From: Sclerodactyla briareus
Taxonomy: Eukaryota > Echinodermata > Holothuroidea > Dendrochirotida > Sclerodactylidae
DNA length: 64,000 nucleotides
Direction of reading: 5' to 3'
Assembly: GCA_026419785.1 (NCBI GenBank)
Contig: JAODTK010000543.1
Coordinates: 186,001 to 250,000 of the forward strand
Shown: positions 43 to 42,689 of the stretch, piece by piece
How positions within the stretch are numbered: the stretch's first letter is position 1
Layout of the letters: each line of letters starts with the position of its first letter
Program-made: the position numbers and the translations under genes
The notes under the pieces: generated by a model
What the model was told of the DNA's origin: nothing
The model's database searches: none
The model's input: only the letters and a program-made list of their open reading frames with translations

Positions 43-69
43 GATTCATCCGGACTTCGTCAAGGAATC
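43..69 (+). other. Hairpin next to a CA tract, copy 1 (degenerate)
   Basis: The left arm reads GATTCAT and the right arm AAGGAATC around a GACTTCGTC-type loop. The intact consensus from the other copies is GATTCCTT and AAGGAATC with the loop TGACTTCGGC. As in the other copies, the right arm is followed by a run of A. Its role is unknown. The constant position beside CA/TG arrays suggests the end of a mobile element. Confidence 0.55.
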
Positions 70-270
70 AAAAATGCGCCAGGGTTCTGTGAATCACAGG
101 GACGCACGGTCTTCACACTCTCACACAGGAAGCAGAAGCCCAACGTTCTGGTGTATTGAAGGCGCGCTTGAGTGATGCGTTCCATGGGCACCACGGAAGC
201 TCTGTGATCAAGGGGCGCTATTTATAGTGACGTCACGTGTCACAGAGCATCAATAATGGTGTATCACGTG
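60..270 (-). promoter_or_regulatory. Promoter-like cluster: two E-boxes, CRE, TATA box
   Basis: Read on the minus strand, this holds CACGTG at 265-270, an overlapping CRE and E-box (CACGTGACGTCA, 228-239) and TATAAATAG at 218-226. An ATG lies at 183-185, roughly 35-40 bases below the TATA box, where transcription would normally start. The ATG opens only 41 codons and stops inside the hairpin at 60-62; I do not recognise the peptide. The order CACGTG, TGACGTCA, TATA is what a CREB/bHLH-driven core promoter looks like, but no gene of proven coding quality follows. It could be the promoter of a repeat or a chance cluster. Confidence 0.3.
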
Positions 271-4730: not shown

Positions 4731-5937
4731 TATAACTGTTGTTCTATTCATGGATTTAAAACTGTTTACGTCGTGCATGGACGCCACATTGACCCCCAAT
4801 TTACACATTAAAGTGCTCATCCACAAATTCTGGCAATTGGCAAAATTCACTTTCTGTTTTCAATTTATGTGAGGCAAACAACCCATTAAATTGAAACCCT
4901 TCCAGCTAGCTATATTATACTCCATTAACCTTTCTGAAGATACGCGGTCTCAAGAAAGTAAAGCCTTTGAGCAGTCGATGATTTGTCATTGGGTGGGGGG
5001 GGGGTTGAGGGGTCGGAACCCTTCGTGCGTAACCCCCTGATATCGCTGCTTTCACCATCTCCTCGTCCTGCGTCAATAATGACTAGGTCAGTAACGAATA
5101 GGTCAGTAACGAATATGCCAATACTGAATGGGTTAATTATTACTATAGATCCATAAACCATCCCATTCATCTGTTGTAAAGCGCCCGCCGATTCACATAA
5201 TTCTGGCCAGGCCCGGTAAGCAAATTATCCCGCCCGGAGCGTCATGAATCGATCGTTTTTTTTTTTTTTTAAATTTATTAGATTTTTAGACTTACTTGTA
5301 AGAAATTGGACATAATTATGTTAGGGTTATATACTCGCCGTATCCACCACGGAAGGCTACGTCAAACAGTTACCCATGTATTCATATAATTGCGGGGATA
5401 TTGGTGAATGCTCCAATAAGTCAATAATGTAACACTCCGTTCTGGCAATGGGAAACAGGTTTTTTTTTGTTTTGTTTTTGTTTTTTTTCGGTGGTCTAGG
5501 ATCTTTAACTTACACAACATTCTGTATCTTACAGCCATTACTGCGCTCCGCTAAGATGGTCAACATAATTATACCCCCTCCCGCTCCTCCCTCCCCCCCC
5601 CCCCCAATGCCCTTAGTACTGCGCCGCCTGTTTATATACTGTAGATCCGTGTAAATTTATCAGATGCCTTTTTTATGAACTCGGAGCTTACTGTTGTGAT
5701 GGTTAAAATGAAATCAGTAGAGAAATCAGGCAGTCATGACAGTTGGGTGGGGGGTGTTATGTATGTAGGTTTTTGTGCGTGTGTGTGTGTGTGGTGTGTG
5801 GGCCCTGGCTTTTGCTCACGATTACTCTACCTCACAGGATGGAGGAAACTCAACTCGGTATAATTTGTTCGCCATGCTGAGTACATGAACCCTTTATAAT
5901 AATGTATTAAGGTAAATGGTCAATGATCATCTGAGGT
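4731..5937. other. No gene; short low-complexity tracts
   Basis: Contains a small tandem duplication at about 5,084-5,116 (AGGTCAGTAACGAAT twice), a T-run near 5,257, a C-run near 5,592 and a short TG tract near 5,777-5,795. No coding domain or RNA gene was recognised. Confidence 0.6.
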
Positions 5938-6349
5938 TAATTTATTTATATTTATTTACATTTACTTCATGAATGATGGGTAAAAGAACTCGGTTTAGAA
6001 ATTGCTAATCACCCACCCGAGGCCAAAAATACCCTGTCAACATATCTAAATGACACAAGAATCCCCATGAAGAGGTCAATATTAGATAAAGTGACATTAA
6101 ACGTAGAGAGCCTTAGAGGTCCATTAATAAATATTTCATGAACCTTACAAAACAAAATGGGAATCAATCAAATGAGATAATCATCACTGGATCAAATGTA
6201 TAATGAGGCTCCTTTGTCAGATGAAATCATTAAAAGAAATTCATAAAATTACCTTATATACCATCATAGACACTTCAAAATCCTCAAATAATATTTAGCT
6301 TCTAAAAATTCATATTATTTCGCGAATTAATGTTTACAAAAAAAACTGC

Positions 6350-10690: not shown

Positions 10691-11205
10691 GAGCCTTCAG
10701 TTTGAACGTGATGGTAGACAAAAAAGAATTGGAACAGATTGTTTCTGCTGCCCATGGCAACCCGTATTTTTACACTGTCGCGAACCGGTTCCTGTTGTCG
10801 ACGCGCCACTAATAAATGGCGGTAAAATAGTATATGCGGTGAAAGATTTCAAACCGAAAAACAAACCTCGATCAAATGTTGTAAGGACACAGCGAAAACG
10901 TTGGCACCCAAACTCCTGAACAGTGCCGTAAAACAGTATTGAAAAGTATATAGAATAAATCAACTAACATAGAACTTAACCATAAAGCCAAGTGGCTTAG
11001 TGATTCCTTGACTGGTTTTCTGTCACCCATAATCATACACAGGGACACGGACATAATGGAGATAGTACCAGCTCATGCTGGGCAACATCACTTTCTGACA
11101 ACTTTCCTATCTTTACCAACCAAACTAATAGGGTTCCTGTACCTTGGTAAGAAAGCTAACACTAAATTTCAAGTTTTTTTTTTTCAGACTTGACCTCGGA
11201 ACCTT
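10691..11205. other. No gene recognised
   Basis: Links the LINE 5' end to the satellite. A TTTGACC-type satellite-like phrase and the T-run near 11,170-11,190 suggest the satellite family fades in here. The short plus frames have no recognisable domain. Confidence 0.5.
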
Positions 11206-14200
11206 AGATACCTCCGACTTAACCCAAAAACAATAGGTTCATTACTCCCCATAAGAAAGATCACCCCTATTTCAACCTGATCAGACCAACCGTTCTGGAC
11301 TTAAATCGGGGTTTTCAAGGTTTTCAGACTTTGACCTCTGTGACCTCCCGATGACCTCTGACCTGACCCAACCAATAGGGTTCAATGTATTCACATGGGG
11401 AAACACATACTCAAGTCGAGCTTCATCCATCCGGGTGGGGGCGAGTTATCGTGTTTTACAAGCCACAATTGGCCGAAATATCAAATTTTCATTCACAAAT
11501 TTTTCTATTTTCGACCAAAATTCACCCCAACCTACAACCAAAACAATAGCTTTTCCTGTCCTCCCCATAAGAAGCATATCAACACCTAATTTCAACTTGA
11601 TCAGACCAACCATTCTGGACTTATCGTTTTACAAGGTTTCCCGACTTTGACTTTGGTGACCTCAATGACCCTCTGAGCTGACCCAAAACCAATAGGGTTC
11701 ATGTACTCATCATGGGGTAACACACCTACCAGTATGAGCTTCAATCCACTGGGTGGGGGTCGATTTATCGTGGGTGTTTTCACAAGCAAATTGGCCAAAA
11801 TTATCAACTTTTCACAAATTTTCCATTTTCTCCTTTCTAAACTAACTACCAAAATTCAATTTCACTCCCACCTGACCACAAAACAATAGTGTTCCTGTAT
11901 CCCCTCCCCCATAGAAGCTTGTACACCTAATTTCAATTGAATCAGACCAACCTTTCTGGACTTATCGTGTTTACACGGTTTCAGACTTTGACCTCTGGTG
12001 ACCTCAATGAACCCTCTGCCTGACCCCGAAACAATAGGTTTCATGTACTCATCATGGGAACACAACTACCAAGAATGAGCTTCAACCATCCGGGTGGGGT
12101 CGTCGTTTATCGTGTTTTACCAAGCCAAATTGGCCAAATATCAAATTTTCACAATTTCCTATTTCCGGTTCGACCAAATTTCACCCCGACCTGAACCAAA
12201 ACAATAGGGTTCCTGTACTCCCCATAAGAAAGGCTAGAAAGCTACACAGCAATTTTGAACCTGATCATACCAACAATTCTGGACTTATCGTGTGTTTACA
12301 AGGTTTTCAGACTTTGACCTCTGGTGACCTCAGATGACCTCTGACCTGACCCCAAAACATAGGATCAATGTACTCAAGCCATGGGAACACACATACACGT
12401 ATCAGCTTCATCCATACTGGTGGGGTGAGTTATCGTGTTACAAGCCAAATTGCCAAACTATCAATTTTCCACAATTGTCCATTTTTGAACAAAATCCACC
12501 CCCAACCTACACCAAACACAATAGGTGTTCCTGTATCCCCCTAAGAGCTATACCCCTAATTTCAACTTGAACAGACCAACCCATTCTTGACTTAATCGTG
12601 TTTACAAGGTTTTGACTTTAACCTCTTTCGACCTCAAATGATCTCTGACTTGACCCAAAAACCTAGGTTCAGTATCATCATGGGAAACACACCTACCAAG
12701 TATGAGCTTCATCCATCTGGTGGGGTCGAGTTTCGTGTTTCAAGCCAAAGTTGGCCAAAATATCAATTTTTTCAAATTTTTTTCCATTTCTCCAATTCAC
12801 TCCCGACCTGAACTACAAACAATAGGTTTCCTGAACTTCCCATAAAAAAGTATACACCTAATTTCAACTTGATCCGACCACCTTCTGGACTTATCGTGTT
12901 TAAAGTATTTCAGACTTTGACTCTTGGTGACCTCAGATGACCTCTGACCTGAACCCAAAACAATATGATTCCATGTACTTCATCATGGGGAACACATCCT
13001 AACAATATGAGCTTCTCCATCCGGTGGGGTCGAGTTTATCGTGTTTACAAGCCAAAATTGGCCACAATATCAAAATTTTTCACAAATTTTCCATTTTCTA
13101 CTAAACCCCCCCTTTAAAATACCAAAATTCACCTCCCGACCTGACCAAAAAACAATAGGGTTCCTGTACTCCCCATAAGAAGCTATACCCCTAATTTCAA
13201 CTTGATCAGACCAACCATTCTGTTATCGTGTTTACAAGGTTTTCAGACTTGGCTTTGGGGACCTCAGATGACCTCGGACCATGACCCAAAAACAATAGGT
13301 TCATGTATCATCATGGGGAACACACCTACCAAGTATGAGCTTATCATCTGGGTGGGGTCGAGTTATCGTGTGGGATTACAAGCCAAAATTGGCCAAAATA
13401 TCAAATTTTTCACAAATTGTCATTTTTACAAAAATTCAGTCCCGACCTGATCCAAAAACAATAGGGTGTTCCCGTACTCCTATAAGAAGCTACACACCTA
13501 ATTTCAAATGACAGAACAACCATCTGGGACTTATCGTGTTTACAAGTTTAGACTTTGACATCTGAGTGACCTTAGATGACCTGTGACCTGCCCCAAAAAC
13601 AATAGGGATTATGTACTCTCATGGGGAACACACACATACCAAGGTAGCTTATTCATCCGGGTGGGGTCGAGTTATCGTGTTTACAAGCCAAAATTGGCCT
13701 AAATATAAAATTTCACAAATTTCTTCCGACCAAAATTCACCCGACCTGAAAACCACAAACAATAGGGTTCCTGTATCCCCATAAGGAAAGCGATTACACT
13801 GATTTCAAGCTGATCAGACCAACAATTCTGGATTATCGTGTTTACAAGGTTTTCAGACGTTGACCTCTGGTGACCTCAGATGACATCGACCTGACCCCAA
13901 AACAATAGGGAGTCATGTACTCATCATGGGAACACAACCATTACAAGTATGAAGCTTATCATCTGGGTGGGGTCGAGGTATCGTGTTACAAGCCAAAATT
14001 GGCCAAAACATCGACTTTTCACAAATTTCTATTTGACCAAAATTCACTCCCGACCGAACTAAAAACAATAGGGTTCTGTACTCCCCATAGAAAAGTAACA
14101 CTAATTGCAACTTGATCAGACCAACAATTTGGACTTATAGTGTTTACAAGGTTTTAGACTTGGACTCTGGTGACCTAGAGACTACGGAGACCCAAAAAAA

Positions 14201-14590
14201 CAATAGGATTCCATGACTCATCATTGGGGAACACACCTACCAAAATTTAACTTCATCCAACCAGGTTGGTTCAAGTTATCGTGTTTTCACACGCCAAAAG
14301 TGGCCAAATATCAAATTTTCACAAAGTTCCATTTTCTACCAAATTTCACTCCCGACGACCAAAAAACAAGAGGTTCTGACTCCCCATAGAAACGCTATAC
14401 ACTAATTTCAACTTGATCAGACCAACCATTCTGGACTTATCGTGTTTCAAGGTTCAGCTGTGACTCTGGTGACCTCGATGACCTCTGACCTACCCAAAAA
14501 CAATAGGGTTGATGTACTCATGCATGTGGAACAACATACAAGTATGAGCCTGACCTAACTAAGACCTGATCAAGTTATCGGGTTTACAAG
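11206..14590 (+). repeat. Satellite of about eleven 300-340 bp units with TGACCT half-sites
   Basis: The half-site block recurs near 11,333, 11,651, 11,992, 12,317, 12,617, 12,920, 13,253, 13,559, 13,861, 14,165 and 14,464. Each unit carries, in order: the TGACCT cluster; ACCCAAAAACAATAGGTTCA; CATCATGGGGAACACA; CATCCATCTGGGTGGGGTCG; TTATCGTGTTTACAAGCC; CAAAATTGGCCAAAATATCA; a second ACAATAGGGTTCCTGTA; and CTAATTTCAACTTGATCAGA. The units differ by many single-base indels and code for nothing. The array ends directly at a CA tract and hairpin. Related single units occur at 14,765-15,045 and 23,270-23,440 (both inverted) and as short remnants at 27,186-27,240 and 37,688-37,735. Confidence 0.9.
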
Positions 14591-14600
14591 CTGGCGTCGC

Positions 14601-14637
14601 ACAGAAACATACACACCACACACATACACACACACAC
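14601..14637. repeat. CA microsatellite
   Basis: A short imperfect CA tract between the last satellite unit and the hairpin at 14,653-14,678. The sequence CGTGACTGC links the tract to the hairpin; its reverse complement sits in the same place in the copy at 22.98 kb. Confidence 0.85.
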
Positions 14638-14652
14638 GACGTGACTGCATGA

Positions 14653-14678
14653 GATTCCTCTGACTTCGTCAAGGAATC
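14653..14678 (+). other. Hairpin next to a CA tract, copy 2
   Basis: A stem-loop with arms GATTCCTC and AAGGAATC and a ten-base loop (TGACTTCGTC), followed by AAAA. It is a near-consensus copy of the motif at 22,954, 27,831 and 38,474. Stem-loops near the 3' end are a hallmark of Helitrons, but I do not see a clear CTRR end after it, so that link is only a suggestion. Confidence 0.7.
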
Positions 14679-14764
14679 AAAAAGCGTAAAAATATAGAGC
14701 AGAATCTTTTTCTTGCGTTCTTTCGCGGTGGGGTTTGCCGGAATTGGGTCAACAACAGGTCAAG

Positions 14765-15045
14765 TCTGAAATTGCGTGACAGGAAAGCCATTAGTGCTTG
14801 GGTCTGATCAAGCTGAAGTTTGGTATGCAGCTTTCTTATGGGTGAGATGGAACCCAGTGTTGTTTTAGGTGTGGATTGGGGTCATGTTGTATGACAAACT
14901 GGAAAATTGTGAGATATTTATATTGTGACCAATTTAGAGACAACATGAAAAGTTGATAACTTGATCTCACCTGCAGGGATAAAGATGACAATGGTTCCCA
15001 AAATGAAGTACATGAAGCCTTTTGTCTTTTGTTTTATTTCTTGAC
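14765..15045 (-). repeat. One diverged satellite unit in inverted orientation
   Basis: Read as reverse complement, this matches the satellite: TTGATCAGA becomes TCTGATCAAG, the GCTTTCTTATGGG block, a GTTGTTTTAGG block, and the AAATTGGTC/CCAATTT pair. It lies beyond the CA tract and hairpin and faces the array, so the hairpin sits between oppositely oriented satellite sequences. Confidence 0.65.
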
Positions 15046-22940: not shown

Positions 22941-22953
22941 GGCGGCTTTTTTC

Positions 22954-22979
22954 GAATCCTTGCCGAAGTCAAAGGAATC
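22954..22979 (-). other. Hairpin next to a TG tract, copy 3 (inverted)
   Basis: The arms are GAATCCTT and AAGGAATC with loop GCCGAAGTCA, the reverse complement of the consensus. It is followed by GCAGTCACG and a TG array, so the whole composite is in reverse orientation relative to the copies at 14.6, 27.8 and 38.4 kb. Confidence 0.7.
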
Positions 22980-22992: not shown

Positions 22993-23440
22993 AGTGTGTG
23001 CTCTCGCGCGTCGTGTGTTGTGTGGTGTGTGGTTGACCTTGACGGATTCGTTTCAGCCTGATATCTAACGAGCGCAAGCATGTGCCAAATAACAAGTACC
23101 AATATTAGGTAGGTGGGATGCCTCATAGTTGGAGCCGACCCTATTCAAAATTTCAAACAACTCCTCCATAAAATAGCAAGGAAGGGAAGCACCTATAAAA
23201 TTCAAATCGGTATTGTAGGTGCAAGAGTACAGAGAGCAGATCCAGTATTGATTTTTGAGTGAAGGTCATTCACATGTACATAGATTGGTCCGTGCACCGT
23301 AGATGACCCCATTGTTTTGGGTCAGGTCAGAGGACTAGGGGTCCACAGGGATCAAACTCATGCTTGTCATGTAGGTAGTATCCTATTACTTTGGGGTCTA
23401 AATTAAAGTCACTTTAGGTCAGCAGGGGTCAAAATTGGAA
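22993..23440 (-). repeat. TG tract and one satellite-like unit, inverted
   Basis: An interrupted TG tract (22,993-23,033) is followed, after about 240 bases of less clear sequence, by CCATTGTTTTGGGTCAGGTCAGAGG and further AGGTCA-type half-sites up to about 23,425. That is the reverse complement of the satellite half-site block. The order of parts is the mirror image of the satellite, CA tract and hairpin at 14.5-14.7 kb. Confidence 0.6.
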
Positions 23441-24078
23441 AAAGCCTATCAATACATTTGGATAATACATTTTCTGATCAGATCTGGCATAATGGTTCAA
23501 CTCTCAACATATCCAAAATACCCCTTTCGGACACGCCGGTACTATGTTCAAACCTATGTGGTGGAAGGCAGAAGAGCCTTCAGAACCACATTGTGTACAA
23601 TGGGGTCTATATGTACTTTCTTTCAACATTATTCGAGAAGTGCGCCCTCATATTGACCTTCAGCTCTTCACACAACCAAAATAGCTTATCGACAAAATGG
23701 AAGACATTCCCGAACAAGTGATTTTTCCTGTCCAATTTTATCAATGAAATCACATAATCGTCTGGCCAACTCTACTCAGAGATTTTTGCACTAAACCCAT
23801 GAGAACACTTGTGCACGAATTCGTTTGAATGATTCAGAGCCTATCGGGTGATATTTTTTACAAACTCACATTATCTTCCTCGGGTTACGAAAACCTCCCA
23901 TAGGGCTTTGAGTGTTAACAGCTCATGAATATACCTATACTGACAAACTATGTCAATTTCCCTCATAGTACGAGTGGGGCTACTGCGAATTCATTCCATT
24001 TGAATCCTCGGTTACAATGTGAAAAAACCTTCCTGTCGGATGTAACTGGGCACATTTTCCCCATACATTTAGAGAGAA

Positions 24079-24192
<114 letters not shown>

Positions 24193-26339
24193 ATGCACCA
24201 GTTCCATTACAGTGCTATGGAACACTTTGTACTGGTGAAGTGAATTTTATATATTTTTCTTTGTAATACACGCAGTTTAAGGCTTGCTCTCTTAAAAACA
24301 TTCTCTTGTCCACTATAGAAAGAAATTAGTTGTCCGGAGCTGAATTCAAAGGTGTCTAACCTACTATATTCCTGAGATAATCTGGGTGCCTCAAGTGAAT
24401 TACGGGTAATTTAAAATACTTTAGAAAACTTGTTGAAGACTAAACATCTATACCTGAGACAAGGGAAATGAGAATGTTGTCCATCACCTATACTCCATCA
24501 CAAGTAATGCCACTTGGAATGTAGATTGGCCATACAGAGAACATTGTCCCTGGGTCTGGTCCGAAGTCATCTTAAATTGTTGTGATGTAAAATAAGGCGA
24601 GGAATTACTACCATTGTTTGCTTCTTGTTCCTTGGTGGCTCTACTTGTAGTTGCGAAAGTGAGATCTTAGTAATTCTCATTCACAATTCCCCTGTAGTGC
24701 TGTGAAATTTTTGTTCCCGAGGTCTTGTATCGGGATACTGCAAATAAGTCACTCATCAGTCACAGTAATATCAATAAGCTCGACATGATCTCCTTTCACT
24801 GCTGGTGGTCCTTCGTTGGGAACCTGAGGCAGTTCCGGAGCAGGTTGGGGGTTAGTTACACCCCTGCCTCGATATCATTTCAGCACTGGTCGAGAAGAGA
24901 ATGCGACCACAATTAATACTTCCAGGGTTCCTTGATGAGCCTTCGTTGGGTTTCCCGTATAATGACGCAAACCAAAGCCCGAAATTGGCTAATTAGGCTA
25001 ATTTGCACGATTCACTCGGAATTGGATAACTTTATGAGCGATGGTATTATCAGATCATACGCAGTAAATAACGACTAGCAGCATTTCAAATCGTCATGCT
25101 CAGGTCATCAGCAGTCCATGGCCGGTATTTCTGAGGGACAAGGCTAATGGAGAACAAACGGCGACATTGATGAGAATTATGCAAAGGGTACCAGTTAGCC
25201 AGTACTGCATATGAATCGATACCAGCCCAAACTGTCACCACGGGCCTTTTTCTTAGGTAATAACAAAAATTAAATGACTAGGAAGTGCCGCACTATTAAG
25301 TACAACCTGGAACACAATTCTACACAGACATACGAAGTTTAAAATCTACCTCTCAACCAACGGTGAAGACATTTCCTCCTCCGGTACCCCAGCTATTCCA
25401 GAATGGCTAGTCCCAGAGATGAATGCACAGTTCCAAGCTTCGACTCAACGAAGAAACTACTGAATTAATAGTGTCCGGGTCAAAACAACAAGCAACTTCG
25501 AAATCTGCAAGTCGATCACTCTCCATTAGTTTTTGGCATAGAACATGTTTTTTTGCCAGCAATGCAGTCAGGGATCTGGGCATTCATATTCGAAGTATCC
25601 TTGGGCCAGATGAGACCCGAAAGCCAAGAGGCTTATGAGCCCTCATTATACTTTATTCAACGTGAACGCCTAGTTATTCGAAGGCAGCCAATTTGCAGAA
25701 TAATCAACCTAACATACTCCAACACGTCCGGATTGTGCTACCATTGAGTTTCAAGTAACACGTCCCCCTCTTCGTTCCATGGCGTCGTGATCATTGGGCA
25801 GGGGGGGGGGGGGGCGGAAAGTAACTGTATCGTCACTTGTTCTTTGATAATCGTTGCGGGATTGCCCTCACACACCTCAATTAAACATATTCGAAATTGT
25901 AATGTTTGCTCTGGCCGCGGAATGCGAGTTAAACTGCATCAAAATTTGCTTAAATTAGACGTTTGTCCCCCTGACTATTTAAGTTGATTTCGTTCTATCC
26001 ATGGGAATATGTTCAAATCCATCCCAACAGCCACTCGGGGGTTTCCCAATTGCGGTTTGCGCAGGCCAAAATCGGCCGCCATATATGCAATCGGCACCCT
26101 ATGAAATACCAATCAGGTTGTAAGGAAGATGTTAGGTTTTTCCAGACAATAAAGGTAGAACTTATCAACGAACGTTCATACACGCTGGAAAACGTCGAGT
26201 ACATTATTAAAATGTCAAGGGGTGTATCAAAATCGTTTAGTCAATTCACATTGTGACCCAGTATCATACGTAACCGGCTGTAGGAATATTTTCTGTTTAA
26301 TGCTCACTGAACTTACCTTTGCGACCCACAAATAATGCC

Positions 26340-27140
26340 CTTCTTTGAAAATTTGTGCTACGCTGCTTGAAAATGATGCAACTTGCCCACTTTCACTTAA
26401 TTACAATCGCATGAATGTTAAGTGACATTTCTTTTATGTTTGAAGTTAGTTTGGATTTATGCAAATAAAAAATGGCCATTTGGCCTCATCATTCAGATCT
26501 GAAGGAACACCCATTTGGAAATCTGGCATAGCACGGCTATGATTAAGTTCACTTTTCATTTGGAATTTTATGTAATTTTCAGATAAAAATGGCACTCACC
26601 ATTTGGCCTCTGTAACGACCTTACTTTAATAATATTGCTAGCTGCGCGGAACCAACTATGGCCGTTTCGTAATTGGTAGAGCCAAAATTCGTCATGAACA
26701 TAGTCAATTTGTTCCGATTTGTAAAAGTTACTATTTTATTTATTGAAATGCCATCTGGAAATCACCCATTGGCATTCATTATTATTATTTTCGAAAATTT
26801 TGCTACGCTGCGCGGCAACCAATGGTGCCGTTCGCTTTGATAGCCATAAAATCGCAAGAACAGAAGTGGCTGAGGTGAAATACATCCTACTGCTTCAATT
26901 TTACTTTTGAATCATCACATGGGGAAGCCATTTGGCGATTTCCATTTGCATTTGAAACGACCTAATTTCAAAGAATTCGCAACGCTGCGCAGCAAACTAG
27001 TTCCGCTTTGATTGGATAGTATAAAGCCGTTGACATACACGGTGGCTAATATGAAATTTTAATTTGCAAAGTTTATTATCAATGTAAAACCACATGAAAA
27101 AAAATGGCCATCTGAGCTCCCATGCATCTGAAAAGACCAT
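26340..27140 (+). repeat. Tandem subrepeats with GCTACGCTGCGCGG, in copy A
   Basis: The phrase TTTGCTACGCTGCGCGG-AACCAA followed by GCCGTTCGCTTTGATAG recurs near 26,350, 26,626, 26,797 and 26,975, each preceded by AAATGGCCATTTGG-like text, giving diverged units of about 170-280 bases. The same series appears in copy B at about 36,860-37,640, so it predates the segmental duplication. No coding sense is apparent. Confidence 0.6.
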
Positions 27141-27451
27141 GATAAATTTGCGCTGAGCTCAGAATATAGAAAGGATTGCTCTATAGTGACCTCCAATGAC
27201 CTTTACCTGACAACCCAGAACAATAGGTTCATCCTCCCCCTATGTTCATCCACATACCTAATATAACTTATAGATACTTGCTTACAGTAGATTCTTGCTG
27301 ACAAAGGGTTTTTTTAAACCTGTCCTGTAGTGACCTTGCATGCCTTGAACGGCACGGAACCATATGGATGATAATCCTCCAAATGAGCACCCACGCCAAT
27401 TTGAACTTGGTACCTGTTTGCGTTTTCAGATACCGTGCTGACAAAAAGGGG

Positions 27452-27484
27452 TGTCACACACAGCCACACACAGCCACCTACACC

Positions 27485-27519
<35 letters not shown>

Positions 27520-27814
27520 GACACACAAATCACCCACACATTACAATACACACACAGCCACACACACATAGCACACACGCACACCGCACAATGCCGCACA
27601 CACAGCCCACTCGCGCTCACATTCACCGCACGCACACGCGTGCGCACACACGCCACGCGCACACCACAACGCACGCACTACGCACACACACACACACCAC
27701 ACACACCACACACAACAACACACACACAAACAGACACACACACCCGACACACGCAAACAACACACACACACAACACAAACTCACCACTGGGACACCCACA
27801 AACACACACCGCCC
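27452..27814. repeat. CA array of copy A
   Basis: About 360 bases of CA with CGCACA and GCGTGC interruptions. It follows a TGACCT remnant (27,186-27,240) and the phrase GTGCTGACAAAAAGGGGTGT, and is followed by the hairpin at 27,831. The long overlapping frames in this stretch (His/Thr-rich on plus, Val/Cys-rich on minus) are products of the dinucleotide repeat. Confidence 0.95.
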
Positions 27815-27830
27815 GGTGCTGACCGGAATA

Positions 27831-27855
27831 GATTCCTTTTACTTTCGGCAAGGAT
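27831..27855 (+). other. Hairpin next to a CA tract, copy 4
   Basis: Arms GATTCCTT and AAGGAT with a loop that includes TTCGGC, followed by AAAAA. It lies about 17 bases after the CA array, in the same orientation as the copies at 14,653 and 38,474. Confidence 0.65.
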
Positions 27856-30800
27856 AAAAATGGTAAAAACACCACTGCACTAACAATATTGCCCAAATTA
27901 AGGGATTTCCCCCAGTGGGTAGTGCAGGGTGCACTGGCCGGATCCTTTTTCGGCACAAGTGATGGCTGTTTCATAACTGTTCGAGGAAGGTACAGCATGC
28001 TATGAGTATCCGGTCATACGATGATATCCGTGCGTGCGTTTCCCATATTGCTGTTCCTCACATATAAGCAAGGGAATTCGCCCATGGTTATTTGAAAATA
28101 CCGTCAAACCCCAAATCAATAACGACTTGCGCATTGTAAGCTGTCATATCAGTGATTCGATTTTTATTCCTTCTCTGAGACATTGTTTGGGATGCAGTGC
28201 ACCTCGCGGCACAACCCCCGACTGTTATATGATACCTTATATAGCCCTCTCGCTGGCGCTCAGCAGAAGAAACTGGAGTAGGAAAACACGTGGGTAGGCA
28301 CAAACGAGGGGTAGGCAATTACCCCAGCCTACATTCGGGTAGCACGCGATATTTGACTGATTGAAGTGGCATGGCTGTCGATTATTACCGTGAAGCAGAC
28401 ATCGAAACCTGCTTATCCCTCGTATCAGGTTATATGGATGGTGGTGTAGATTCGTCAATAATTATAAGCATGCTGAATTTAGTCCTTGCCTCATCTTATC
28501 TGAAACCTGGCAGATTTGCTCTCATGGTCCCAGGATTCAGAGGCTCACAAGCCTTCCCCCCACGACAAGGTATCAGCACGGGAAGTACCTATTTTTGCAC
28601 ACACTTTTCCTAATTTGATCAATTCATCAGTTGACTAATTTCGAGATTTTCCATTTATATTTTTATTACTTTGCCTTCGTTTTGCGATGTTTTAAACATT
28701 AATCGTATTTCGAAATGTCGAGTCATTCCAAATCTCGATTTCTTTTCAAAGTTCTGGAACAACTTCTAGCATCGCTTGTGATACTTCTCTATTTAATTTC
28801 GACATTGTTTTAAAATTGTCGTTAGTGACTTTTCCCCCCGATTTTTCAACTACCAACCCCAATTTTTAATTTTAACTCATATTGGAGATTCCATCCAGTC
28901 TTCAAGTAGAGTGTACCTTTGTTAGTTGTTCCCATCCTGTCAATTCGCGATTCAGTGTCTTACCGATATCGCCCTTGTTTGTAGTTTGATATTTTACTTG
29001 TAAAAAAAAAAAAAAAAAAATAATCATCTCAATATTTCAATTTCATCCGTCGCTGTGGCGATGTTAACGTTTCGAGTCCTCCGAAAATGCGTCATGTTTC
29101 CTCGATTCATTCGGATATCGTATTCTCTCTTTTTCCTCTGCAACATACCACCATTTGGACCTGCGAAGTCGTTCATTTTATTTCGACATTTGCATTTTCA
29201 GGTACGAAATGTGTTCGATAGCTATTTCCCTCATTTCTTTACATTTACCATGAGGGCTTTCTGTGAGACTATGAAGAGGAGTGCAATCATCGTTGGCACA
29301 TAACGGCCAGAATTATAAAGTGTTCCATCCGCCTTGATGGCCGAAAAATCACACCTCCTGAGTGCTCAAGCACGCATGTACGGAGCCTTGGAATATCCAT
29401 CACCTGCTGCACTTTTCTTAATGAGAAATGAACAGTTTTGAATAAATGTTATACATGTGCTACATGACGATACATTTATAGTGAATCCTCCTTTATGAAT
29501 CCTGCCAGTGCCCCCCAAACACCGTTTATCACTGTGTTACATGTGTTTCCATTATTCCCTATACATCACTTATTTTTGGTTGCAATAACTATCCTCAAAT
29601 GCAGACGGCCTCCATATAACCTATCTCGGGTGTCCCATAACCACCCACCCCCACCTTTCTACAACTACACCTGTACAGACTTTCCATCCTACAAATAGGA
29701 GGCTGCTCATTACCTGTAGACCAACATTAGCCGAATGAAACAAATTCAAACTACCCCTGCGTTTAGTCCAATTATTTTGAGTATATTTGATTACCGTTTA
29801 TGTACAGTGGCATGCAGGGCTTACAGCACGTGACCATTTTGGCCTGATGTCAGGTATACGTTTGTAATGAGCTCTGTAATAGGTATGTCAATGAATAATA
29901 TGGTAACCATAGGCTGAATGTAAAAAAAAAAAAACTGCTACTGTACGGGGGCGAGCAAACACCTTTTCAGGGAAAACCTCCTTCCGAAAATTTAGGCAAT
30001 TGGTGTCTCTCTTCAACTTTATCCTGTAAACTTGCCCGATTTTCCCGTGTATTCATTTCCTCACTTTCACTATTTTTAACTTTCCGTTCCTTTCCTTGCT
30101 TTTTCTATCTCATCTACGGCCCTTCATTTCCTGTTTTCCTTCTCCGTCCCGATGTTACCCCTCCCCAATATTTTTTGCCGGGGAACTTCCCCCTCTGCTG
30201 CACCCCCTATGTTGCGCCCCTGCCGTTTCGTTTTCCACAATTCACGAACCCAACCAGTCAAATCCTTTTTACTTCGGTTGCTCTCGAGAGTTTTGAGGTC
30301 ATTTGAGTCATCTTCAAGTTTAGTATACTTTTACTTCCGTTATTCAGCCTCCTCGGGTCACTTCGAAATATTCTACCGTTCCGTCCGAACCGATATTTCT
30401 ACTTGTCATCACATCTGTTATTCTTTGAATTTCCGTGGAGTCTCGCTTTCCTTAGTTTCAATAATGTCCAATTAAGTGCGGAATTACAGTACTGTCGACA
30501 CTTTCCTATGTTTCATTTTTTATATTTCAATACGTTCGATGCCATCGGTAATTTTTTAGTGTTTGCGCTTTGAATGGGTTCTGAACATTTAAGATATATC
30601 GTCGTTGTAGGGCCTTGTTTCGATATCCCGCTTTTTTCTATCGTTTTATATACTTTGCTCGTTTGAGCTTTGTTTTTGGTTATGTAAACTCAACAACATT
30701 TCCTATTTCTGTTTTTTCGTGGATTCAATTTTACTTTTCACTTGCCTTCGTGACTTTGACATTCTGTCGGGGGGGGGGGGGGGAGACAAGCGACTTCCTA

Positions 30801-31138
30801 TTTCGACTTTTGGATTTCGTTTTTAGATTTTCTCTCGAATCGTTTTCGTGTCGAACTTTCGATGCTTCGGTGCATTGATATCACATATATATTAAAAAAA
30901 AATTGTCCGGACCTTGATTGAGAGACATTAGCATATTAAACGTAGTCCCGAAATCGTTTCGGTTAATCATGAGAGCTGTTGAATTTACTAGATATACATT
31001 TTTAACTTGATGAAACCATATTTGGAAACAGCTACCAGCCATTATTACACATCGTCCACAATCCGAATAAAGGGAACCAACTTCGCTCTAGTTTTAATCG
31101 ACGGTTAGGATCTTGTCCGAACATTTCTGTTTGATAGG

Positions 31139-31600
31139 TCAGCATTGAGAAAGCTTTGTTGCTATTCTCTCGGAAGGCGCAGTGTTTTTAGCATTCGTAT
31201 TCTCAATAGAAGCCATCGCTGCAGCCCACTGGCAAGATCGCTTCAGTTCTGCTTGGGTTCCTCTCCTCCCATAACCTGATAACTTTCTCTTGAGTGTTCC
31301 CACAATTTCCGATTCTTTCGACGTTTTCTTCCACAAGCCTGAACGCCTTCTTTCTTCTGCAATCTTTTTAAACTACCTTGTAGCCCAGATTCTTCCCTGA
31401 GACAATACCCCTGATTGACGTCATCTTCGTTGAGACGTCACGCCCGGGACTGCTCGCGGATCATCGAGAGAACTATCTTGGTCACAAGATCGTTCATCTC
31501 TTGATCAGGAGTTACCTTTAACATTCTCTCCGATCCTCTGTACCAGAAGATCCACACTCATTCCAGGAACAGCCATAGAGTGCCCTTTAGTATTCCTACA
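31139..31600 (-). other. Possible decayed coding segment in copy A
   Basis: Reading the minus strand with a few frame shifts gives two stretches that also appear in copy B (41,700-42,180). One contains SVDLLVQRIGE and TPDQEMNDLVTKIV-SMI-EQS; the other contains AELKRS, then QWAAAMASIENTNAKNTAPSER and a stop. The 65-codon frame at 31,139-31,336 is open. I do not recognise the family. Because the same residues can be recovered from both copies, a dead gene is more likely than chance, but two copies of one repeat are not independent evidence of coding. Confidence 0.3.
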
Positions 31601-32074
31601 TGAGTCAGATCTGTGACGTCACCAGCCCGGTATGGGAGATGATGGCAGTGCCCTGCCCCTCCGCGGTGTTGTGGGGGACTGTGGCTTTGTTATTGTGTGA
31701 GGTTTCTAGGTGACGAAATGAATAGCTGTGCAGATTCTGAGGGGAGAAAAGGACGGAATCGATCAGATGCGTCCAAGGCTGCTGTAAAAACTTTGTTAAC
31801 AAGGTCAATGCTCATAGTACTATGGAACTATGATACATCAGATTTATCCCTGCGCGCTTCTGTTGGAAAAGACATGTGGTTTATGCCATCGTCGTTTCAA
31901 GCGGGGACATAGCCATCTTTTTACGTTGCGGATGGGTAGGGTGGTAAGGACATTTCCCCTGATTTTGACAATCTCGATTTCCCCAAACCATATATGTTGG
32001 GTTTGCAGAGTAGTGGATTATTTTTAATTTAAGGCCTGGCGCCGAGCGAGACGACTTTAACCCTTGAACCACAA

Positions 32075-32150
32075 CCTCGCCCTGGTCGATGTCTCAATTG
32101 GCAGACGTGCAGCACTCAGACTTGCATGGTTCGACTCGTACCGATAACTA
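32075..32150 (+). other. tRNA-like head, copy A
   Basis: TGTCTCAATTGGCAGACGTG matches the box A region of tRNAs and tRNA-derived SINEs. GGTTCGACTCGTACC, about 45 bases on, matches box B. Between them lies CACTCAGACTTGCATG, similar to an anticodon arm. The acceptor stem cannot be paired, so this is a SINE head or tRNA pseudogene rather than a working tRNA. The corresponding sequence in copy B is at 42,690-42,760. Confidence 0.5.
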
Positions 32151-33802
32151 TACTCCATATTCAATTTGTACTTTTAAGTCCTGAATTTCTATTCCAATAT
32201 GTATTTATATAAATAGTACACTGCCTTCATTTTGTTGAAGCTCAGTTCCATTTTCTAGTCGTATAGACGCCACCGCAAAAATATGAATGACCGAAAACGC
32301 TGAATAACTTGACCTTATCATACAGCGTTCTCCTTTCACCCTTGAATGACACTTGGCGGATCCGTCTTACATATTATGGGGGTAATTTCAGATCTAATCT
32401 CAACGCTTCAATTTCTAACCTTACAATTTTTCTAACTTTAATCGTAGGAGGGTGGGGGGGTTGTGGTTTGCCCTACGTCGCGATTTCTATGCAGAGACCA
32501 CCACTAAGATGAAGGGTATTGAGGCATTATTCGTTGTAATATACCCGATGGCTCCACGATGTATGGAGTCTTCCCTTCATTAGCCTTCCACGTTGCCAAG
32601 AAACAGCGGGCTTGACACACCCACCAATAACACCCACCTACGGGGTCCTTAGGGCCATCAAACAAATACATGGATCTTATAAAGTGATTACTCACATCAT
32701 TAAAAATGCGATGGAGGCATAGTTGAAGTTAAAAAACAAGCTCGGTGAGAGTTAGTCACTAACAATTTCGGTTGTCATGTAGCATACACTGAACCAAATC
32801 CCTGGTTTACAATTGATTTCCGCATGAATAAGTCTGCATAGGTAAGCCTGCACACGGAGGAACCTATTCGTTTTTTGGTGCTTACTGGATGATACTCTGT
32901 GTACAAAGTTATTTTGAGATAACTTTATTAGCGGGAAAAAAAATAAAAAAAACGATCGGGATTGGGGGCTTTGGCTTACATACTCCTAGGTCGGGTTTCC
33001 CCCTTTGTCACGCCACACAATGGTGTATATTAATTCGATTCGACCGACGTTGAATTTGCAGATAGTCCCATGTCCGACCATGGGGGCATATCCTTCAGAA
33101 GACTATTGTGTGTGACAAAAAAGATAAAGAGAATATAATGTTTCGGAGAAGTAGCGGATGCAACTGTAATGGCAGTGATCTGGTTAACCGTGTTGTGGCG
33201 AAAATATAATCTTTGATTTGGATCAGAAAACTTGTCTCACGACTTAGGCCTACCTATTTATATTCCTTCGGAAACTTTCGTGCATTTAGGTTGAAATGCG
33301 CTATATAACCAGGCCCTACGTATATACTACATTGTTATCTGAACGTCACCTAAACTTATCTGAGATACGTCCTCTATGTCATTATGACTAAACAGAAGGA
33401 AAACGATTTCTTCACCAGTTTATCAAACTCCAGCTCTCAATTCATCAGTTGATGCTCTCCAACGATCAAATGCTTGATCAGTCAGGTGATAAAATCGCAA
33501 AAGTACAGCAAGAGGAAAACCGAGGGTCTTTATCTTTTGCTGCGGTCAACTTTTGTTGTGACTGTATACCAACGTTGCTAGTGCAGTAAGTCCATCTTGT
33601 TCGTCTAAATATCCCTCGTTCGTGACGCAACAATGAATCCTATCTTCTATTGGTTGACTATGTTGGGCGCAAAAGACGCGTGATGCTAGATCGAGAGTTG
33701 TTGCTTGCATATAGGATCTTCTACGTTTATGTGCGTGCATCGTCGAAGACGATATCGTGCCGTCATATCATCTAATCCCATAGAGGTCTTAAAACTGCTA
33801 GA

Positions 33803-34260
33803 GCGCGCACTTGCTTTAGCGCGCATGATGGCATAAGCCTAAGCTATGTACAATTTCCATTGCCGCTATTCTGATCCCTGGCAAAATGCTGGAGCTTTTT
33901 TAACAAAATTGACATTTGCCCGAGCTGGTTGCGTCTGCGTGAGAAGGCATTGTTAACGCGCTATATCATTACACAATCCCTATCCGCCCGCGCAGAACAC
34001 TACTTTTAGGACGCGCACGCACTCAATCTTCCCATGTACCATCGCCACAGCTAAGATAGGATCCCGTCAAAGACAACCAGAGCAAGCTCCTGCGCGTGTT
34101 CCTGAGGAGCGGATTCTGTACAAAAACACGCGCGCGTACAACCCACACACAACATATACTAACGATTTCGTAGTTACCTGCTCATCCCCATACGCGCGCG
34201 TTATGAAACCATTATTAATGGCGTTGGGATGTGATGGAAGTCCGCACATCTAGTATAATA
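33803..34260 (+). repeat. CGCG-rich repeat R, end of copy A
   Basis: A segment of about 460 bases beginning GAGCGCGCACTTGC, with CATGATGGC, CTAAGCTATGTACAA, GAGCTGGTTGCGTCTGC, CAGAACACTACTTTT, several ACGCGCGCGT palindromes and a closing CCGCACATCTAG. Its first 85 bases recur right after it, at 34,273, as the start of copy B, and again at 47,095 as the start of copy C. Fuller copies are at 44,398-44,870 and, inverted, at 45,620-46,070. Confidence 0.75.
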
Positions 34261-37200
34261 TAACACCCCTCTAGAGCGCGCACTTACTTTTGACGCCATG
34301 ATGGCAGGAGGCCTAAGCTATGTACAACATTTTAATGCCGCCATTCCATTCAGACACCACATTGTTTACAATGGGGTGTATATGTACTTCTCTGAACATT
34401 AGCGAAGAGCGCCCTCTTTGTTTCACTCCTTCACACAACCAAAAGATCCTATCGACAAATGGATAGACATGCCCAACGAGGGATTTTTCTTTCCATTTAC
34501 AATGAAATCACATAATCGTCTGGTCAAATTCTACTCAGATATGTTGCACTAAACATAGAACCATAATTTTTCAACCTCCATTATCTACCTCGGGGTACGA
34601 AAACTTCCATTAGGGTTTGAGTGTTGAACAGCTACATATGGTACCTATACTGACAAACTTTGTCAGTTTCCCTCATAGTAACTTGGGGCTACTGCGAATT
34701 CATTCTATTTGAATCCTCGGTTACAATCAATAATGTGAAAAAACCCTTCCTGCCTGTGTAATAGAACACATTTTCCCCCTCTATTTAGTGCTATCCAACA
34801 CTTTGTCTGGTTGAGTGAATTTTATTATTTTTCTTTGTACTACACACAGTTTAGGGCTGCTTTCTTAACAGGTCTCTTGTCTACTCTACTTAGTCGTCCG
34901 GGTTGAATCAAGGTGTGTACCTACTATATCTGGAGATAATCAGGGTGCCTCAAGTTATTACTGTGTAACTTTATAAACTTTAGGAAACTTGTTGAAGACT
35001 AAACATCTATACCTGAGACAAGGGAAAATAGGAATGTTGTCCATCACTTTTTCATTCTTCACAAAGCGCCTGTATGTAGATTTGCCATCAAGAAAATGGT
35101 CCCTGGCCTGGGAATCTGAAGTCATCTGAATTTCTCGTGATTTTAAATAAGGCGAGGAATACTAACGTATTGTTGCGTTTCTTTTCTCTCGGTGGCTCTA
35201 CTTGTAGCTGCGATACGCGAGATTTTAGTAATTCTCAATTCACAATCTGTCTCTGTAGTGCAGAGGGAAATTTTGTCCCGATGCCTGTATCGGATACTTG
35301 CAATAGAGTCACGGTCAGTCATTCATGCAGTATGACAATAGCCTCCGACAGGAACCTCCGTTTCCCTGCTGGTGGTCCTGTTCGGTGTTGTGAACCTGAA
35401 TGGCTGCAGTTTCCGGGCAGTTGGGTGTTAGTTACACCCCTCCTCGATATCATTTCTGCACTGGTATAGAAGAGAAGGCGAAAACCAACAATCAATACGT
35501 TCCATGGGTTCCTTGAGTGACTTCGTTGGTTTCCCGGGAAGCAAACCAAAGCCTGAAATTGGCTAGATTGGCTAATTTTCCACTGTTCACGGCGAATTGA
35601 TGGTCCTCTAGTAAGCGTTGGTATTTATTCGGATCATACCATTAAAGGACAGTACAGCATTTCACTCGTCATGCAAAGTCTCAGGCAATCCATGGCCGGG
35701 ATTTCGAGTGACGAAGGCTATGAAACAACGGCGACTTGATTATAATTATATCAAAGTACTTGCCAGTACTGCACTCTCATATCGATAACAGCCCAACTGT
35801 CACCATTGTGACTCTAAAACTAGTAATAACAATCATGAAGGAACTAGAATGCCCACACTATTAAGCACAACCTGGAATACAATTTCTACACAGACGATAC
35901 GCAGTTAAATCTCTCAAACCAACGGTGAATGACATTTACTCCGGTACCACATCTATCAGAATGTCTGTCTAGGAATGATGACCGTTCACAGCTTCGACCA
36001 ACGAAAGAAACTCCTGAATTAATAGTGGCCGGTCAAAATACCAACTTCGAAATCTGAACGAATCAGAACATGTTTTTTTATGCCAGCGATGCTGTCAGGG
36101 ATCTTGGCCTTCATATTCCAGTATCTTGCCAAGATGAAGCGAACCATAAAGCAAGAAGGCTTAGTGATCCCGTCATTATCTCTATAAACGTGAACGCAAC
36201 TGTTTATTCGAAGTGCAGCCAATTTGCAGAATAATCACCTACCATACTCCAACACGTCCCGATTGTGCTATCAAGTTGAGTTTTCCAGTAACACGTCCCC
36301 TCCTTCGGTCCATTGCGTCCGTGCCCATTGGCGGGGGGGGGGGGCGGCATGTAACTGTACATCGAAATTGGGTTTCTTGCTAATCGTTGCGGATGCCCTC
36401 CCACCGCACTAAACATAAATCGAAATAAGTAATGTCATTGCCCTGCCGAGGAAATGCTAGCTAATGCATTAAAATTTGCGTAAGTTACGTTGATCCCCTC
36501 TGATATTGTAAGTTTTTCGTTTCTATCCATGGGAATATGTTCAAACATACACAGAAACAGCCCCTCGGGAGTTCCCAATTGGGCGGTCCGCAGGCCAAAA
36601 TCGACCCCCATATGATGCAATCCGGCACACTATGAATACCAATAAGTTAGGAAATATGTTTAAGGTTTTTCAGACAAGAAAAGGTAGACTATCAACGAAC
36701 GTTCATACGCTGGAAACGTCGATACATGTATTAAAATCGTCATATCACAATCACTTTAAGTCAATAACCTTGTGCCATTATATACTTACGGGCTGTAGGA
36801 ATATTTTCTGTTTAATGCTCTCTACGACTTACATTTGCGAAGCCACAATATTCCCCTTCTTTGCAATTTTGTGCTACTCCCCTGCCTAAATGACTGCAAC
36901 TTGCCCACTTCATTATCTAAATTCGCATGAACTGAATGACATTCTTTTTATGTTTGAAGTTTAGTTGTTTATGAATATAAAAATAGCCATTTGGCCTCAT
37001 CATCAGCATCTGACAAATCACTCATTTGGGAATTTTGGCATGACAGCACGCTGAAATTCACTTCATTTGTGAAGTTGTAATGTTAATTTCAGATAAAAAT
37101 GGCCCTCACATTTGGCATCTGTACAGACCTTACTTTCCTTTGATATATTTGCTACGCTGCGCGGAAACCAATCAGGCCGCTTCGCACTTGTATGCCCAAT

Positions 37201-37965
37201 CGTATGAACATAGGTGAAATTTGTTCCACGTTTGTAAAGTTAACTTATTTTTATCTATTGAAAAGCCATCTGGAATCACATTTGGCATTCATTAATTATT
37301 AATTTCGAAAAATTTGCTAACGCTTCGCGGCAACCATGGTGCGCTTCGCTTTGATAGCCATAAAATTCGCAAGAACATAGAGTGGCTGAGGTGAAATCTC
37401 TAATGCCTTCATTTTTACTTTAATCATACATTGGAAAAGCCATTTGGATAATAACCATTTGCATTTTGAACACGACCCTTTTCAAAGAATTCGCAACGCT
37501 GCGCAGCAACTGTGGTGCGCTTCGATTGGATATATATAAAGCCGCTTAGCTCGTGGCTATTGAAATTTTAATTGCACACGTTTATGTTCATTAACCACAT
37601 GACAAATGGCCCTCTGGAGCTCACTGTGCATCTGAAAAGAACCAGATAAGTTCGCGCTGAGCTCAGATATAGAAGGATTGCCCTATAGTGACCTCCAATG
37701 ACCTTGACCTTTAACCCAAGAACAAATGGTTCATCCTCCCCTATGTGTGCAAATCCAATACCTCATATTACTTAATAGATACTTGCTTACATTAGAATCG
37801 TGCGACATTTTTGTTTTTTTAACTTTGTCCTGTCGTGCCCTTGCATGACCTTGAACTGGACACTGGAACCAATAATGGTGAATCCTCTCCACATGAGCAA
37901 CCCACTTGCCTATTTGAACTTGGTACCTGTTTTGGCGTTTCGTTCAGATACCGTGCTGACAAGGG

Positions 37966-38452
37966 TGTCACACACACACAGCCACAGCCACACACATACA
38001 CACACACACACACAAACACACATCACATACACACAACACACACCGCACACGCACACGCACATGCACGCACACACATGCACACCATCACACACACGACCCG
38101 CGCACACACACACAACACGCCACACGGTGCGCACACCCACAAGCGCGCAGCACACACGCACACCCGCACCCACACGCACACACACACACACACACAACAA
38201 CACACAAACAACACACCACCCAACGCACAAACACACACACATACACACACACCCACCCGGCACAATGCACGCACACCCACCTCGCGCGCACACACACCAC
38301 ACGCACCGCGTTCGCCACAGCACCCGCACCGCGCACACACACAACGCCCACAAGCTCACACACACACACAACACACACAAACAACACACCACACACACCA
38401 CATCAACACACACACACCACAAAAACCACAAACACACAAACAAAGACACACC
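37966..38452. repeat. CA array of copy B
   Basis: About 490 bases of CA with interspersed CGCACA and GCGCGCACA. It follows a TGACCT remnant (37,688-37,735) and GTGCTGACAAGGGTGTCACA, and is followed by the hairpin at 38,474. The 221- and 223-codon plus frames and the 179-codon minus frame here are dinucleotide artefacts. Confidence 0.95.
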
Positions 38453-38473
38453 GCACGGTTCGTGACCGCATAT

Positions 38474-38504
38474 ATTCCTTTTACTTTTACTTCCGGCAAG
38501 GAAT
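38474..38504 (+). other. Hairpin next to a CA tract, copy 5
   Basis: Arms ATTCCTT and AAGGAAT around a longer loop containing TTACTTTTACTTCCGGC, followed by GAAAATTGG. Same order and orientation as in copy A. Confidence 0.65.
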
Positions 38505-41500: not shown

Positions 41501-41699
41501 GAGTAAAGCGTGAGGGAGCTGTTGAATTTAAGAGATAATAACATTTTAACTGGGTGAAACACCATATTGAACAGACTAACATCAATTATTTAGGCGTCAC
41601 ATCCGAGAGAAGGGAAACCCATATCCTAGAGTTTATCGAGTTTGTGGAATTGATCTTTTCGAAACATTTCTGTTTGGATAGTGTCAGAGCATTATAAAG

Positions 41700-42180
41700 C
41701 TTGTGCATTCTTATCGGAAGGCGCAGTGTTTTTAGCAGTTGTATTCTTCAATGAAGCCAGTGCTGCCGCCCCACTGCAATGATCGCTCAGTTCTGGCTTG
41801 GTGCCTCTCTCCCAAGTAAACTGAGAAGAAACTTTCTCTTTGATTGTTCACACAATTCCGGATTTTCCGACGTTTTTTTCTTCCACAAGCACTGAACGCT
41901 TCTCTCTGAAATCATTTGTAAAATACGCTTGTAGCCAAAGAAGTCTTCCTGTGAGACAACAACCTCCTGATATGACGTCATCTTCGTTGATGACGTCACG
42001 CACGGGGGACTGCTCGCTGATCATCGAGGAGAAACTACTTGGTCCCAACAAGAATCGTTCATCTCTTGATCAGGAGTTACCTTACATTTCTCTCCGATCC
42101 TCTGTACCAGACGATCCACACCTCATTCCAGGAACATCGATTAGGGGCCCGTTAGTTTTTCACTACATGAGTACAGATCT
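41700..42180 (-). other. Possible decayed coding segment in copy B
   Basis: Counterpart of 31,139-31,600. On the minus strand, with frame jumps, it gives TPDQEMND, SSMISEQSPV-DVINEDDVI, then a segment with TKPELSDHCSGAAALASLKNTTAKNTAPSDK. The stop and frame-shift positions differ from copy A, so both copies are broken independently or by sequencing error. Family unknown. Confidence 0.3.
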
Positions 42181-42689
42181 GTGACGTCACTCAGCACGGC
42201 TTATATGGGAGGGAATGATGGCAGCGCGCCTGCCCCTCAGCGGTTTGTGGAGGGGGGGGGAGGGCGTTGTTATTGTTAGGTGATAGGACCGAAACTTGAT
42301 AGCTGCAGATTCTGAGGGGGAGAAAAGAAGAATTAGAGAAATCGATGCAGATGCGTCGAAGGCTGCTTTGCTTGTAAAAAACTTTTGTTTTTAAACAAGC
42401 TGGTCAATGCTCAATATACTGTGAAACTATGATACATCAGATTATTCCGGCTCGCCTTCTGTATGAAAACAGACCATGGTGTTTATGCCATCGTCGTTTC
42501 AAGCGGGGACGTGGGGACCGTCGTAGCCATCTTTTTTTACAGGTGGGAGGGGTAGGTATAAGGACTTTCCCCCCGATTTTGCAGTCTATTCGGAGTTCCC
42601 CAAACCATATAGTTTGGGTTTGCAGAGTATTGGCTATTTTTTGAAGGCCTGGCGCCGAGCGAGACGACTTAACCAATTTGAAACAAAAG

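Follow-up and report, generated by a model that had tools for sequence, protein, structure and literature searches.

A satellite-bearing composite in Sclerodactyla briareus, very probably a non-autonomous Helentron

The stretch of contig C539 analysed here (64,000 nucleotides, hereafter the window; the assembly comprises 319 Mb in 3171 contigs) presents a satellite array, a CA run and a hairpin that adjoin one another in a fixed order and in both orientations. This arrangement raises the question of whether the composite is a mobile element and, if so, to which class it belongs and how it relates to its array. The initial annotation had proposed a non-autonomous, Helitron-like unit of the pearl/DINE-1 kind with the hairpin at its 3' end. 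The evidence gathered here indicates a real, well-bounded, high-copy element of a kind already known, very probably a non-autonomous Helentron (HINE; of the DINE-1, pearl and Cg_HINE kind) carrying a satellite array. The proposed affinity stands and the polarity is reversed, the hairpin forming the 5' end when the element is read on the minus strand. Judged from the array, the assembly appears rich in small indels, and frame breaks and identity values are therefore to be taken loosely.

Layout of the composite and its relatives in the window

The 301-bp-period array, the CA run and the hairpin are all present at 11.1-14.68 kb. The approximately eleven units annotated at 11.2-14.68 kb were recovered as 12 monomer hits, 11 of them near-full. 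The composite extends further than originally drawn, to a conserved far end at 10978-11094. Its parts are as follows.

10978 to 14683, minus strand: whole element, very probably a non-autonomous Helentron-like element (HINE), family A; 3706 bp with terminal Ts included, 5' end at 14683 and 3' end at 10978; copies elsewhere in the genome match each end, beyond which similarity breaks off
14679 to 14683, minus strand: 5' terminal T-run (AAAAA on the plus strand)
14668 to 14678, minus strand: 5' subterminal inverted repeat (subTIR) GATTCCTTGAC, with an exact inverted copy at 11002-11012
14653 to 14664, minus strand: inverted repeat complementary to the 5' subTIR, the two forming the hairpin; DNA fold of 14640-14690, -7.4 kcal/mol, z -2.66
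14600 to 14638, minus strand: TG microsatellite (CA on the plus strand), in the same place in other copies
11112 to 14597, minus strand: central satellite array; TRF period 301, 12 profile hits of a dimeric unit of about 300 bp, 11 near-full
10978 to 11094, minus strand: conserved 3' terminal block; nhmmer E 3.1e-25, the window's own sequence being one row of the profile
11002 to 11012, minus strand: 3' subterminal inverted repeat GTCAAGGAATC
10985 to 10998, minus strand: 3' palindrome AAGCC-ACTT-GGCTT with a 5-bp stem; the 61-nt piece taken whole shows no folding advantage over shuffled sequence (z -0.19)

Read on the minus strand, the 5' half runs from the T-run through the subTIR GATTCCTTGAC, a GAA loop, the complementary arm and a TATGCAGTCACGTC-like block to the TG microsatellite and the array. 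The 3' end is a block of about 110 bp that contains the subTIR GTCAAGGAATC, ACT, AAGCC-loop-GGCTT, TATGG and TT; many other copies read TCTGG in place of TATGG. The DNA fold of the window copy gives the 5' hairpin a stem of 11 bp with one bulge and a GAA loop, so that the annotated hairpin is retained and its 8-bp arm length is revised. SubTIRs of at least 11 bp occur at both ends, as exact GATTCCTTGAC and GTCAAGGAATC in the window copy and exact or with few changes in others. On the 5' side the distance to the end is 0-5 nt, the exact value varying with the assignment of the Ts, and on the 3' side 22-24 nt. The palindrome near the 3' end reads AAGCCTTTTGGCTT in family A and GACACAGTTTTGTGTC in family B; these palindromes fold weakly, with z values of -1.65 and -1.34 for the consensus forms and the value listed above for the window copy. 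The inverted repeat complementary to the 5' subTIR, the microsatellite and the central repeats are features of the DINE-1 type.

Further copies in the window are partial or degenerate.

43 to 74, minus strand: 5' end (hairpin at 43-69 and T-run) of another copy, whose body lies to the left of the window
22947 to 22979, plus strand: 5' end (T-run and hairpin) belonging to an oppositely oriented, degenerate copy, with a satellite relic at 23299-23454
25615 to 27860, minus strand: degenerate copy, first duplicate; 5' end near 27855 and 3' end near 25615, both placed by inspection and by comparison with the second duplicate
36142 to 38510, minus strand: degenerate copy, second duplicate; 5' end near 38505, 3' end at 36142 (E 3.1e-5)

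Two of these bear out earlier readings, namely that the window opens with the hairpin end and that a mirror-image case occupies 22.95-23.44 kb, where the hairpin itself spans 22954-22979. A search for the 3' end of this 23-kb copy found none. The composites reported at 27.19-27.86 and 37.69-38.50 kb are degenerate copies with a satellite relic, as proposed, and they are not two independent copies. Positions 24211-34255 and 34787-44892 are duplicates of each other, 77-78% identical across about 10 kb, and an incomplete third copy sits near 47.1-50.5 kb; the element lies within two of the duplicates and a piece of its 3' end within the third. Because of this duplication the two composites share both flanks, and they therefore represent one insertion, subsequently duplicated. 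Both carry a family B-like 5' hairpin (TTGCC) and the phrase GTGCTGACAAGGGTGT, close variants of which occur in the B-hairpin loci L014, L018, L022, L026 and L033; the 3' end of the 38-kb copy (36142) is degenerate and A-like. The satellite is reduced to relics at 23.3-23.45, 27.2 and 37.8-38.0 kb, where the monomer scores 24-35 bits, as compared with 176-270 bits across the 11 near-full units in the window array. At 18.28-18.36 kb, annotated as a weak further case, the CA run is present, but neither inspection nor pattern search showed a hairpin; as the pattern likewise failed to pick up the degenerate hairpins of the 27-kb and 38-kb copies, a decayed one may be present. These corrections to orientation and to the number of independent copies are relevant to annotation of this genome.

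Weak satellite-unit relics in the opposite orientation were also observed at 14747-15028 (minus strand), near the 5' end of the element, and at 5801-5939 (minus strand). Separately, the window contains a run of 108 As at 24084-24191.

Boundaries, target sites and class of the element

Genome-wide, the hairpin GATTCCTTTGACTTCGGCAAGGAATC has 549 matches with at most three mismatches (267 on the plus and 282 on the minus strand), and the opposite end CCAGAAAGCCAAAAGGCTTAGTGATTCCTTGAC has 929 (470 and 459), with zero matches for the control in each case (a reversed pattern for the hairpin); these are counts of ends rather than of complete elements. Among the matches listed, every occurrence of CCAGAAAGCCAAAAGGCTTAGTGATTCCTTGAC is exact. 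In 36 of the 38 loci first fetched, some of which overlap one another, comparison shows a common sequence up to GGAATC and an A-run, beyond which the sequences look unrelated; L002 and L004 were unmatched. When 22 copies, each with about 7.5 kb on the array side, were compared all against all, the unmatched 27-kb and 38-kb window copies being left out, 412 alignments covered the hairpin. All except two stop within 30 bases past it (410/412), at a median of 5, which contradicts a gradual fading without a common boundary. The far boundary is a conserved block starting at about ACCAGAAAGCCAAAAGGCTTAGTGATTCCTTGAC and including GATTCCTTGAC, which repeats the outer hairpin arm in inverted form; 20 distinct 3' ends were found in the fetched loci, and several loci end without the block. 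For 5' ends, 40 of 61 distinct matches were kept. The 21 with 5 mismatches were left out, 20 being wrong-strand readings of the palindromic hairpin and one (L045) apparently real and diverged.

The target resembles that of Helentrons. TT occurs in the last 5 bases before the 5' end in 40/40 cases and TTTT in 31/40, while TT forms the first two bases after the 3' end in 14/20. The AT target preference that the first reading anticipated gives way to a TT or T-run target, as in Helentrons, rather than the A|T of canonical Helitrons. Empty sites, defined as matches elsewhere across the junction of the joined flanks, were recovered for three of 12 constructs: L054 at 28 or more places belonging to a dispersed repeat (up to 89% identity), L020 at one place (82%) and L045 at five (74-81%). 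No empty site was found for the other nine constructs. The 12 come from 16 (L042 with its nearer 3' flank; L039, L055, L057 and L058 omitted), after 18 end pairs had been found and one of two kept for each of L042 and L058. In the first empty-site search 40 of 384 candidates were scored, mostly for the L054 construct, which makes the misses of other constructs there weak. The aligned empty sites (four for L054, one for L020, two for L045) are uninterrupted T-rich sequence with no target duplication beyond the Ts; small gaps lie beside the junction in the L020 alignment. The sharp hairpin boundary, the matching far boundary, the empty sites and the ends in both orientations uphold the mobile unit of the initial annotation.

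Two side observations concern these loci. The flank of L054 (C3065:719845 and others) belongs to a further dispersed repeat, longer than 100 bp, which was used as an insertion target. In L058, HINE 3' ends occur twice and a 31-bp tandem repeat array flanks them, a position that fits insertion into that array, the 3' flank aligning partly.

A second family, B, has the 5' end GATTCCTTGCC and the 3' end GGCAAGGAATC or a close variant together with GACACAGTTTTGTGTC. Both ends occur in L040, L046 and L051, and the hairpin assigns L015, L033, L043 and L049 as well; in L043, 4.7 kb separate the 5' end from a B-type 3' end, which may derive from a different copy. The genome contains 69 B-type 3' ends (control 0). 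Among 39 classified 5' hairpins, one of the 40 kept ends being unclassifiable, the tenth stem pair is A-T in 27, C-G in 7 and a C.T mismatch in 5. Both arms of the stem and both element ends share the change, which fits a functional role for the subTIR and hairpin. Because the loci were picked for resembling either the window copy or the hairpin pattern, the tenth-pair and family counts are not a random sample. Two high-copy HINE families are hereby added for this genome.

Among other classes, a canonical Helitron derivative, with 5' TC, 3' CTRR and insertion between A and T, is improbable. CTGG at 11 of the 20 3' ends, with a palindrome just upstream, would suit it, but the search pattern itself ended in CTGG and hence favours that reading. 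The 5' terminus consists of a T-run and then GATTCC rather than TC, the target is TT or a T-run, and the family B terminus is TTGTTT in the copies read. Moreover, the feature list for canonical Helitrons in the available portion of PMC4067079 includes neither a 5' hairpin nor inverted subterminal repeats at the two ends. Less probable still is a cut-and-paste MITE with a captured satellite, suggested by short inverted repeats at both ends; elements of the HINE kind were earlier misfiled as MITEs, according to the part of PMC4067079 available. Here the repeats are subterminal, the hairpins at the two ends differ in sequence, and the aligned empty sites of three insertions lack a target duplication. 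An ordinary satellite array spread by segmental duplication or recombination, with the hairpin as a chance neighbour, accords with the truly duplicated 27-kb and 38-kb copies but hardly merits consideration, given hairpin alignments that stop so abruptly among the 22 copies, their flanks being therefore unrelated, and the empty sites of three insertions.

The HINE reading retains by far the greatest weight. Counted against it are the failure to find a partner with the same ends, the 22-24 nt between 3' subTIR and terminus, the weak 3' palindromes, the proportion of CTGG ends and the nine constructs without an empty site. In the mechanism proposed for a HINE, a Helentron Rep/helicase supplied in trans would nick at the termini, and one strand would be copied by rolling-circle replication. 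The 5' subTIR and hairpin and the 3' subTIR and palindrome would serve as start and stop signals. The array would be carried passively, changing in length by whole units and passing from copy to copy.

Searches of the genome with PF14214, PIF1 and a Rep piece found no autonomous element with these ends. The PF14214 (Helitron_like_N) profile gave three matches at two loci, two pieces on contig C2413 being confirmed as Helitron_like_N by Pfam, and a search with the C2413 Rep piece returned the same two loci only. PIF1 gave one locus with two internal stops. As to the linkage to a Rep/helicase element that the first reading proposed to look for, Rep fragments turned up at two loci, and neither they nor the PIF1 hit were seen to carry the ends of the element. 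At C2413:101601-105075 (L059, L060) a broken Helentron-type Rep fragment is followed by a GDFN motif, which we take to be endonuclease-like, and then by an inserted HINE 5' end, with no helicase recognised by eye in between. The Rep piece reads VRIEFQQRGSPHAH and bears the Helentron "RGSPHAH" signature with serine, a residue given as a mark of Helentron Rep in the available part of PMC4067079. In the Helitron-type Rep, L takes the place of this S before PHxH. About 1.1 kb separate the Rep piece from the HINE 5' end downstream of it, and the HINE extends in the direction away from the Rep. This Rep therefore lies outside the HINE, and its nearness, initially suggestive of linkage, was rejected as proof of a partner.

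The microsatellite, the array and its half-sites

In 30 loci found by the hairpin pattern alone, TG/GT steps are more frequent on the inner than on the outer side of the hairpin in every case (inner median 25, minimum 15; outer median 9, maximum 15). A threshold of at least 25 steps per 50 bases is passed by 15/30 inner sides, 0/30 outer sides and 0.3% of random windows. About half of the copies thus have a long run, the rest being short or decayed. The earlier claim that hairpins are accompanied by CA arrays holds as an inner enrichment throughout and as a long array in that half.

The unit of about 300 bp is a dimer, its half-unit-shifted self-alignment giving 58% identity (66% over the best 104 bases) and half-units of about 150 bp. 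Arrays adjoining the microsatellite contain from 1-2 unit hits (L052, L054, L047) up to 12 in the window copy. In 24 of 26 sources the adjoining unit breaks off at consensus position 253-266, the exceptions being L052 at 247 and L055 at 225. Between six young copies, selected after identities had been seen, this unit is 95.5% identical at the same position and 87-91% identical to units elsewhere. Since the microsatellite-adjoining unit is most alike between young copies, the array appears to travel with the element; independent capture of an array by each copy was rejected on this evidence and on the shared end point.

For the inner units of the young copies, likeness within a copy exceeds likeness between copies only slightly, by 0.7 points, a difference as large arising in 68 of 5000 shuffles. 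The difference rises to 3.0 points (0/5000 shuffles) when all 16 copies that have three or more near-full units are compared, but the nearest neighbour lies in the same copy for only 21 of 63 units; in L048, L042, L039 and L056, within-copy identity falls below between-copy identity. We read these patterns as an array inherited through transposition with limited homogenisation within copies. The system offers a usable example of transposons carrying satellite DNA, with a dimer unit, copies that differ by whole units, and a unit order partly preserved between copies.

The consensus unit contains TGACCT-N4-TGACCT-N4-TGACCT-N1-TGACCT, that is, two DR4 spacings and one DR1. TGACCT is the reverse complement of AGGTCA, which we take to be a nuclear-receptor half-site. 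Perfect triple sites at spacing 4 number 1,958 in the genome (control 6). Among the matches listed, 48 of about 100 triple sites have the exact unit consensus, and a good part of the triple sites may therefore lie outside the element. Judged from sequence, it seems unlikely that the satellite is a portable cluster of nuclear-receptor half-sites, with the element seeding many of these triple sites as it spreads and enlarges the array and some of them acting as hormone-response or receptor-sink elements. Half-sites are conserved at 0.925 against 0.872 for the rest of the unit, and single half-sites rank at the 69th to 97th percentile of 6-mers; this slight excess and that range of ranks are insufficient for a functional claim. 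Alu repeats are reportedly spreaders of such half-sites (PMC1785376, PMC3252374), and a literature search joining Helitron with AGGTCA returned a single paper, which concerns plant centromeres.

Comparison with known satellite-carrying Helentrons

Elements of this kind have been described in oysters, mites and fruit flies. The closest counterpart is Cg_HINE of Crassostrea gigas, which, in the account of PMC7492417, likewise combines an 11-12 bp 5' subTIR, a complementary inverted repeat, a microsatellite, a satellite-like central array, a 3' subTIR and a palindrome. The same account describes insertion without target duplication, a T-rich or TT target and both orientations, and its authors likewise could relate no autonomous element to it. 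Differences from that account lie in the microsatellite (TG/CA here, mostly 4-base motifs in Cg_HINE), in the satellite unit (a dimer of about 300 bp with half-units of about 150 bp, against a 140-180 bp average) and in the 3' terminal block (about 110 bp against about 60). The pearl elements of oysters and ark clams, classed as HINEs in what is available of PMC7492417, carry short arrays of central repeats of about 160 bp and are likened to the present element by description only.

DINE-1 and HINE-Mo, so far as the accessible text of PMC4067079 describes them, share the subTIRs, the 3' stem-loop and the TT or T-rich target with variable T-runs, and the inverted repeat inside the 5' end corresponds to that of DINE-1. 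The same text places the HINE 5' subTIR 2-4 nt from the 5' end, with which the 0-5 nt of the present copies are compatible; the 3' subTIR lies 22-24 nt from the 3' end here, compared with 38-60 bp in mites. Overall, the order of parts published for HINE, DINE-1 and Cg_HINE, as given in the available parts of PMC7492417 and PMC4067079, is the order of the window element.
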